64,000 bases of DNA, taken from Candidatus Poribacteria bacterium (GTDB lineage: Bacteria > Poribacteria > WGA-4E > WGA-3G). The stretch is from NCBI GenBank assembly GCA_012270795.1, contig JAAXHO010000213.1:18778-82777 (forward strand), in the 5' to 3' direction. A program made the translations under genes and the position numbers. The first letter of the stretch is position 1. Every line of letters begins with the position of its first letter. Positions 11,639 through 59,296 of this stretch are shown in pieces. The notes under the pieces are model-generated. The model was not told where the DNA came from. It searched no databases and saw only the letters and a list, made by a program, of their open reading frames with translations.

Positions 11639-12259
11639 TTAGAATAAAAACACTATCAGAATTCCTCCAATGGCCATTAACGTTCCCATTACCACATAGA
11701 AAATACAAGTGATAAGTTTTATGGGTGCGGATGACACGTTAAAATGCCTATTCATTTCAGCGACTATTTCTGTTAGCAGCGAACGGTGCTCGCGTTGTTT
11801 GATCTTAATCATTCCTGCTCCCAACCATGTCTGAATAGAAACTTGTAAGTCGGCATCAATAGTTGTCAATTTCATGGTAGATAGGGTTTCTTCATAAGGC
11901 AGCTGTAGTTTTTCGAGTGCTGCGAGGAGTGTTTCTCGGAACGATGTATCAGTAACCCCAAAAGCAGCGTAATCTTGCAATGCGAAACACATCATTACAA
12001 GAAGCACTGTAAATATGGCAGGATTTAGCCATTCCATCAAATCCATTTCCATGAGATCCATGTCAGATAATGAAAAATAGATAGGCAGTAAAATGATTGG
12101 TATATACGTTACAAACATGAGCCCAAGCAGCCATCTATTTGATAGCAAGAACGGTTTTTTGGTCAGAATGCCTCGGAACCCGATTACCAAGAAAAAGACT
12201 GCCAAAAGTCCAAACAAAATTGCGAACACAATTGAAAAAATGTAGAAATCAACGTCCAT
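11639..12259 (-). CDS. Membrane protein of unknown function
   Basis: 206 aa, several hydrophobic segments. Confidence 0.6.
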   Translation of the reverse strand: MDVDFYIFSIVFAILFGLLAVFFLVIGFRGILTKKPFLLSNRWLLGLMFVTYIPIILLPIYFSLSDMDLMEMDLMEWLNPAIFTVLLVMMCFALQDYAAFGVTDTSFRETLLAALEKLQLPYEETLSTMKLTTIDADLQVSIQTWLGAGMIKIKQREHRSLLTEIVAEMNRHFNVSSAPIKLITCIFYVVMGTLMAIGGILIVFLF

Positions 12260-17283: not shown

Positions 17284-17382
17284 CTGGCTAAATTTAATAG
17301 GACTTATGCAAATTTGAAGATTTTTTCAATAATTTTGTCTAAAATAATGTAATTTTTAGCAGGTTTGCAGGTATCCAGATTT

Positions 17383-17467
17383 CGTAGGTCGGGTAGAGCT
17401 TGCGAAACCCGACATGCAAAACTAGATGCGATTGTGTCGGGTTTCACTGCGTTCTACCCGACCTACG
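17383..17467. repeat. Inverted repeat CGTAGGTCGGGTAGAGCTTGCGAAACCCGACA ... TGTCGGGTTTCACTGCGTTCTACCCGACCTACG
   Basis: Read directly; related copies at 55052..55180 and inside the 59027 element. Confidence 0.85.
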
Positions 17468-21007: not shown

Positions 21008-21085
21008 TATTTATATCTCCTTAGTTTATACTTCAATGTATATCTCAGATTGCATGAGCCATTGGCATTATGCAATATTAATATT

Positions 21086-21382
21086 ATACCATTTCTAATA
21101 AATTATATTCCATTAGAAAGACTTCTTTCAGGGTTATTTAGTTTTAAAAATTTTCCGTTTATTTGTGTTACCAATAGTTTATATCGTAGGTCCAAATCAA
21201 GAAATCAACGGTATGAATGCCATTTAGGCATTCCCCGGGTAGAGCGTATGCGACACCCGACCTACAGATGGTTATATTGAAATGTGAAAAATATGCCCAA
21301 AAATCCTAAAACTAAATAACCCTGGACTTCTTTCCCCTCGCTTGCGGGGGGATAAAGGGGGGTTCTTAAATAGAAATGGTAT
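21086..21382. repeat. TIR element (ATACCATTTCT ... AGAAATGGTAT) interrupted by a second element
   Basis: Terminal inverted repeats read directly; compare uninterrupted copy 56187..56308. Confidence 0.8.
21129..21324. mobile_element. Non-autonomous MITE-like element, 196 bp, TIR CAGGGTTATTTAGTTTTA, 9-bp duplication GACTTCTTT
   Basis: Flanked by GACTTCTTT at 21120..21128 and 21325..21333. Confidence 0.85.
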
Positions 21383-21436
21383 TACTATAGTTTTATATTT
21401 TAACATGTTTGTTGATAAACGGCAACAAAATAAAAA

Positions 21437-55051: not shown

Positions 55052-55180
55052 CGTAGGTCCAAATCAAGAAATCAACGGTATGAATGCTATATAGCATTCC
55101 CCGGGTAGAGCGCAGCGAAACCCGACATGTATTGATTGTGGTTATCCTGTCGGGTTTCGCTGCGCTCTACCCGACCTACG
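55052..55180. repeat. Composite inverted repeat CGTAGGTCC...CCCGGGTAGAGCGCAGCGAAACCCGACA ... TGTCGGGTTTCGCTGCGCTCTACCCGACCTACG
   Basis: Read directly; flanked by ATACCATTTCT and AAATTGGTAT-type ends. Confidence 0.8.
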
Positions 55181-56186: not shown

Positions 56187-56308
56187 ATACCATTTCTATT
56201 TAAGCCCCCCCTTTATCCGACCCCCCAACCCCCGCAAGCGGGGGCTAAGAATAGCAAGCGAGGGGTAAGAAGTCTTTCTAATGGAATATAATTTATTAGA
56301 AATGGTAT
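56187..56308. repeat. TIR element ATACCATTTCT ... AGAAATGGTAT, uninterrupted copy, 122 bp
   Basis: Reverse complement matches both flanks of the 21129..21324 insertion. Confidence 0.85.
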
Positions 56309-59015: not shown

Positions 59016-59026
59016 GCCAGATTGCA

Positions 59027-59214
59027 CAGGATTATTTAGTTTTAAGAATTATCAGTTGATGAGTGTTACTATCTGTTTATATCGTAGGTCGGGTAGAGCT
59101 TGCGAAACCCGACAGAAACAAAATGTGTCGGGTTTCGCAAGCTCTACCGACCTACAGATGGTCATATTGAAATGTGAAAAATATAGCAGAAAAACCGAAA
59201 ACTAAATAACCCTG
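59027..59214. mobile_element. Second copy of the MITE-like element, 188 bp, 9-bp duplication CAGATTGCA
   Basis: Flanked by CAGATTGCA at 59018..59026 and 59215..59223. Confidence 0.85.
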
Positions 59215-59296
59215 CAGATTGCACACAAAGATTGCTTTCAGAATAAGGTTTTGGTATAATAACTCAAAGTGGTTTTATATATGGTGAATTACAAAC

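Follow-up and report, generated by a model that had tools for sequence, protein, structure and literature searches.

How did one short repeat come to lie inside another in the genome of a Candidatus Poribacteria bacterium, in what order did the two arrive, and which enzyme would have moved the inner one? The locus belongs to a stretch of 64,000 nucleotides, all of which was analysed and which is referred to below as the window.

The nest and its empty sites

The inner element, an ISAs1-type MITE of 196 bp with many relatives in the genome, occupies positions 21129-21324 on the forward strand and is bounded by perfect 18-bp terminal inverted repeats (TIRs), the left one, CAGGGTTATTTAGTTTTA, at 21129-21146 on the forward strand and its inverted copy at 21307-21324 on the reverse strand. 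The same 9-bp target-site duplication (TSD), GACTTCTTT, flanks it at 21120-21128 and 21325-21333 (both on the forward strand, 9 of 9 positions identical); the segment 21120-21333 thus consists of GACTTCTTT, the element itself (CAGGGTTATTTAGTTTTA ... TAAAACTAAATAACCCTG) and GACTTCTTT again. The preliminary description of this DNA, which had placed a 196-bp element flanked by 9-bp repeats at 21129-21324, was right to the base. Folded as single-stranded DNA, the element reaches -31.1 kcal/mol (z -5.4), a strong fold that is mostly accounted for by the TIRs; an Rfam scan of the 64-kb window gave no match reaching the gathering threshold.

The element that is split by this insertion has TACCATTTCT...AGAAATGGTA ends and is best delimited at 21087-21381 on the forward strand, with 3-bp TTA duplications at 21084-21086 and 21382-21384 (forward strand). 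These limits replace the earlier delimitation as ATACCATTTCT, for which the TWA duplications had been overlooked; the nesting of the inner element in the outer one holds. An uninterrupted outer copy, flanked by TAA, lies at 56188-56307 on the reverse strand and represents a near-empty paralogous site: read as the reverse complement, 56187-56308 has AAAGACTTCTTACCCCTCGCTTG across the insertion point, one base different from the interrupted copy. A third copy, L096:1642-1741, is also uninterrupted and reads AAAGACTTCTTCCCCCCCGCTTG at the insertion point. Both copies span the same point, in agreement with the earlier claim that another repeat is interrupted here. The preliminary description was correct in taking 56187-56308 for an uninterrupted copy; this copy is a paralogue and does not represent the same site, and the true orthologous empty site is found in another genome.

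That genome, G013, is the closest available relative, with 93% identity in the flanks of the nest site. It carries GCAATATTACTATAG in place of the 295-bp nest, outer and inner elements both being absent, and a 6-bp ATATTA difference adjoins the empty site. The orthologous G013 sites are also empty for three other insertions, so that all four resolved sites (4/4) are empty: those at L097:9308 and L065:9953 and a second ISAs1-type MITE in the window, 188 bp long, at 59027-59214 on the forward strand, with the TSD CAGATTGCA at 59018-59026 and 59215-59223 and its empty counterpart on G013 contig C180. This second copy had been overlooked in the preliminary description. Unless G013 has lost the elements precisely, the split from G013 came first, then the outer insertion and last the inner one; the relative age proposed earlier is supported both by the nesting and by the finding that G013 has neither element at the orthologous position. 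There is also a site of the opposite kind: a small element of G013 (L231, G013:C50, reverse complement of ~12008-12165), with ends like CTCAAGTTGCTACCTA...TAGGTGGCAACTTAGGT and TATATTAA on both sides, has its empty site at window position ~24188.

A nest might also arise without any jump of the inner element into the outer one, through gene conversion or recombination between repeats at different loci; recombination does occur in these elements, with cores common to several families and arms apparently shuffled between copies. An exact local 9-bp duplication combined with precise empty paralogous and orthologous sites is, however, predicted by transposition and not by recombination, which we therefore consider a highly improbable source of the nest. 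Judged from the sequence, the same duplication and empty sites argue for transposition of the inner MITE, as had been claimed.

Copies and target duplications

At up to three mismatches, the 18-mer is matched 4 times in the window, where 0.12 matches would be expected by chance, and 163 times in the whole assembly to which the window belongs (5.18 Mb in 298 contigs), against 7 for a reversed control; CAGGGTTATTYAGTTTTA, with at most one mismatch, has 110 matches versus 0 for the control. The ends are present in all congeneric genomes examined, rarer in a sister genus of the family and almost absent outside the family.

Ends were paired in 60 fetched regions of the same genome that amount to 1.15 Mb and include the window. 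The 48 resulting pairs carry exact 9-bp duplications in 21 cases and 8-bp duplications in 2, and none has a duplication of 5-7 or 10-13 bp. The 9-mers of the 21 exact TSDs are all distinct (21/21), which identifies them as target duplications and not element sequence. Recurrence of the 9-bp duplications at other copies, suggested as a check in the preliminary description, is thus observed in exact form in 21/48 pairs, and the possibility raised there against transposition, namely, that the flanking 9-mers belong to the element consensus, is excluded by their diversity. Element sizes, available for 47 pairs, range from 121 to 666 bp with a median of 230 bp. These are short elements with TIRs, copy-specific TSDs, a high copy number and presence/absence differences between relatives, and they carry no transposase gene, as is typical of MITEs, whose usual length is below ~600 bp. 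At L105:15552-15974, two ISAs1-type MITEs are arranged head to tail with the same CTGAACCA target.

Exact ends of the outer-element kind number 252 in this genome, and of 38 pairs of TACCATTTCTA ends, 28 are flanked by exact 3-bp duplications (14 TTA, 13 TAA and 1 TGA). MITEs with TWA targets are linked to IS5/PIF-Harbinger-like transposases. The outer element resembles them in its 3-bp TTA/TAA duplication, short TIRs and size of about 100-300 bp and differs from them in that no autonomous partner with TACCATTTCT ends was found here. Its TWA duplications point to an IS5/PIF-like target choice, a statement on the type of target and not on family membership. The PF13359 loci of congeners and a scan for open reading frames between paired ends yielded no partner IS for the outer-element ends. 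One of the PF13359 matches, the congener locus L258, displays an apparent TSD pair and was rejected because one of the two 'ends' falls within conserved coding sequence of the transposase; the scan for transposase-bearing pairs returned just housekeeping genes between unrelated ends.

A probable source of the transposase

The search for an autonomous transposase with the same TIRs, which had been proposed in the preliminary description, leads to ISAs1 elements of congeners: the 18-bp ends of the inner MITE, starting with CAGGG, are identical to both ends of the ISAs1 family IS copies L150, L236, L238 and L239. In G004, the 1327-bp copy L150:1540-2866 has a perfect 18-bp TIR at both ends and encodes, at L150:1688-2851, a protein of 387 aa with a score of 217 bits for NF033564, the ISAs1 transposase model (cut-off 70), and with the PF13808/PF01609 domains (DDE_Tnp_1_assoc, DDE_Tnp_1). 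Related intact copies have the same ends in G009 and, in G014, two mismatches at one end. The ISAs1 elements of congeneric Candidatus Poribacteria are ~1.3 kb long, with identical 18-bp ends, a single DDE transposase of 385-387 aa and, in the genomes compared here, duplications of 9-10 bp; unlike these IS, the window MITE lacks a transposase gene and has an interior of unrelated palindromic modules.

ISAs1 elements duplicate 8-10 bp. The intact L150 copy itself has no matching 9-bp flank. The G009 copies at 1.83 and 3.94 Mb have swapped 9-bp flanks (CTGATAAGG, AGTAATTAT and the complements of both), precisely the pattern expected after an inversion between two IS copies that each had a 9-bp duplication; these reciprocal flanks indicate that the ISAs1 IS also duplicates 9 bp. 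More distant ISAs1 copies in G035 and G029, with ends near CAGGGTCATTCAATTKTA, have perfect 10-bp duplications. For the G009 chromosome itself, the swapped flanks of the two copies (among L236, L238 and L239), 2.1 Mb apart, imply a large inversion by recombination; L236 and L239 have ~25 bp of left flank in common.

The assembly that contains the window has about 160 ends, and no intact ISAs1 transposase was found in it; the sole remnant is decayed, 49% identical over 94 aa and interrupted by stops. In G004, by contrast, many fragments stop at contig ends, so that an intact IS collapsed in the present assembly would probably leave traces. Several copies are nevertheless younger than the split from G013, which could mean that a different enzyme, such as an IS5- or IS4-type transposase that escaped recognition, moves the MITE and that the match to ISAs1 ends reflects only shared ancestry. 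We consider this very unlikely: several intact ISAs1 elements carry exactly these 18 bp at each terminus, and MITEs and ISAs1 copies alike have 8-10 bp duplications.

By far the most probable explanation is that an ISAs1 DDE transposase, acting in trans, mobilised the inner element, a non-autonomous ISAs1-type MITE now nested in an older MITE with a TWA target. Earlier, but after the separation from G013, the outer MITE would have entered intergenic DNA upstream of a CBM9-like gene. The ISAs1 transposase would then have recognised the 18-bp CAGGGTTATTTAGTTTTA ends in trans and, through a staggered cut at insertion, generated a 9-bp (at other copies sometimes 8-bp) duplication in the middle of this second MITE, the TWA (TTA/TAA)-duplicating one. 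From sequence comparison, it was probably this ISAs1 transposase that moved the copies described here, and it is presumably now lost or unassembled in this genome.

Beyond the TIRs, the arm beside one TIR is similar to the 5' end of the IS in several copies of the same genome (G000) and in the G004 MITEs L312 and L313, for which 1-2 of 2000 shuffles scored as well; the two window MITEs, taken alone, have no significant similarity to the IS outside the 18-bp TIR. In the autonomous elements, the stretch that separates the start codon from the 5' end contains a hairpin, GCAGATATA-GCGTGA...TCACGC-TATATCTGC (L150 ~1602-1650, with equivalents in G009 and G014), at a position that corresponds to that of the palindromic core in the MITEs.

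Palindromic interiors and known systems

Between its arms, the inner MITE consists of palindromic modules and not of IS sequence, a composite structure that had been overlooked in the preliminary description. The core at 21186-21265 (no strand assigned), GTAGGTC...GACCTAC with the nested hairpin GAATGCC-ATTTA-GGCATTC, is common to other repeat families. In the window, GTAGGTC...GACCTAC cores lie at 21186-21265, 17379-17467, 55053-55179 and 59085-59154, in several shells whose ends are unrelated as well as outside recognised shells. The stem motif of this core, with GGGTAGAGC stems, occurs in 32 of the 47 ISAs1-type elements, in 7 of the 38 TWA-type ones and outside these two types as well, and the core is found in a CTAGTG...CACTAG shell, too (L107:5454-5539). 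The cores are interchangeable and nested, and shells with at least three different kinds of ends contain them; the larger ISAs1-type copies (up to 666 bp) contain several modules, one nested in another. Core loops are seen in both orientations, and hairpin stems covary within copies, the stems within one core matching in 26 of 42 cases compared with 4.6 expected from shuffling.

This modular interior is the sole part of the system that goes beyond a textbook MITE. It is conceivable, if rather doubtful, that hairpin cores (GTAGGTC/GGGTAGAGC, GGTATGAATGC, GGGGTTTCTAACCCC, TAGGAGCGACC and others) move between MITE shells with unrelated ends (the ISAs1 type with 9-bp TSD, the TWA type and the CTAGTG...CACTAG type), and nest, by palindrome-directed exchange and not by ordinary transposition. 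If so, one hairpin family could ride several transposases.

Comparable arrangements are known from other bacteria. The RUP element of pneumococcus has ends that match IS630-Spn1 and also enters other mobile elements (review PMC2229807). The window MITE is likewise short, non-autonomous, provided with IS-like ends and nested in another element; it differs from RUP in the transposase family, in the 9-bp rather than TA duplication and in its modular interior. Aeromonas provides examples of transposon conglomerates and of an IS-mediated inversion bordered by reciprocal 9-bp duplications (PMC5756416). These are paralleled here by elements within elements and by the swapped duplications at the inversion ends in G009, although the nests in Aeromonas consist of full insertion sequences. 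Searches in the open literature returned no account of MITEs from Poribacteria, and nothing on ISAs1 with MITEs and target site duplications or on nested palindromes with MITEs.

The inner MITE, though well documented, is in essence an ordinary mobile element of a sponge-associated bacterium. It provides a fully documented bacterial MITE/IS pair from Poribacteria, which are represented here by metagenome-assembled genomes: the ends of the two are identical, duplications and empty orthologous sites are both observed, and the nesting places two insertions in sequence. An explanation for the modular, nested palindromic interiors that are common to shells with apparently different transposases would be relevant to the spread of small palindromic repeats in bacteria.
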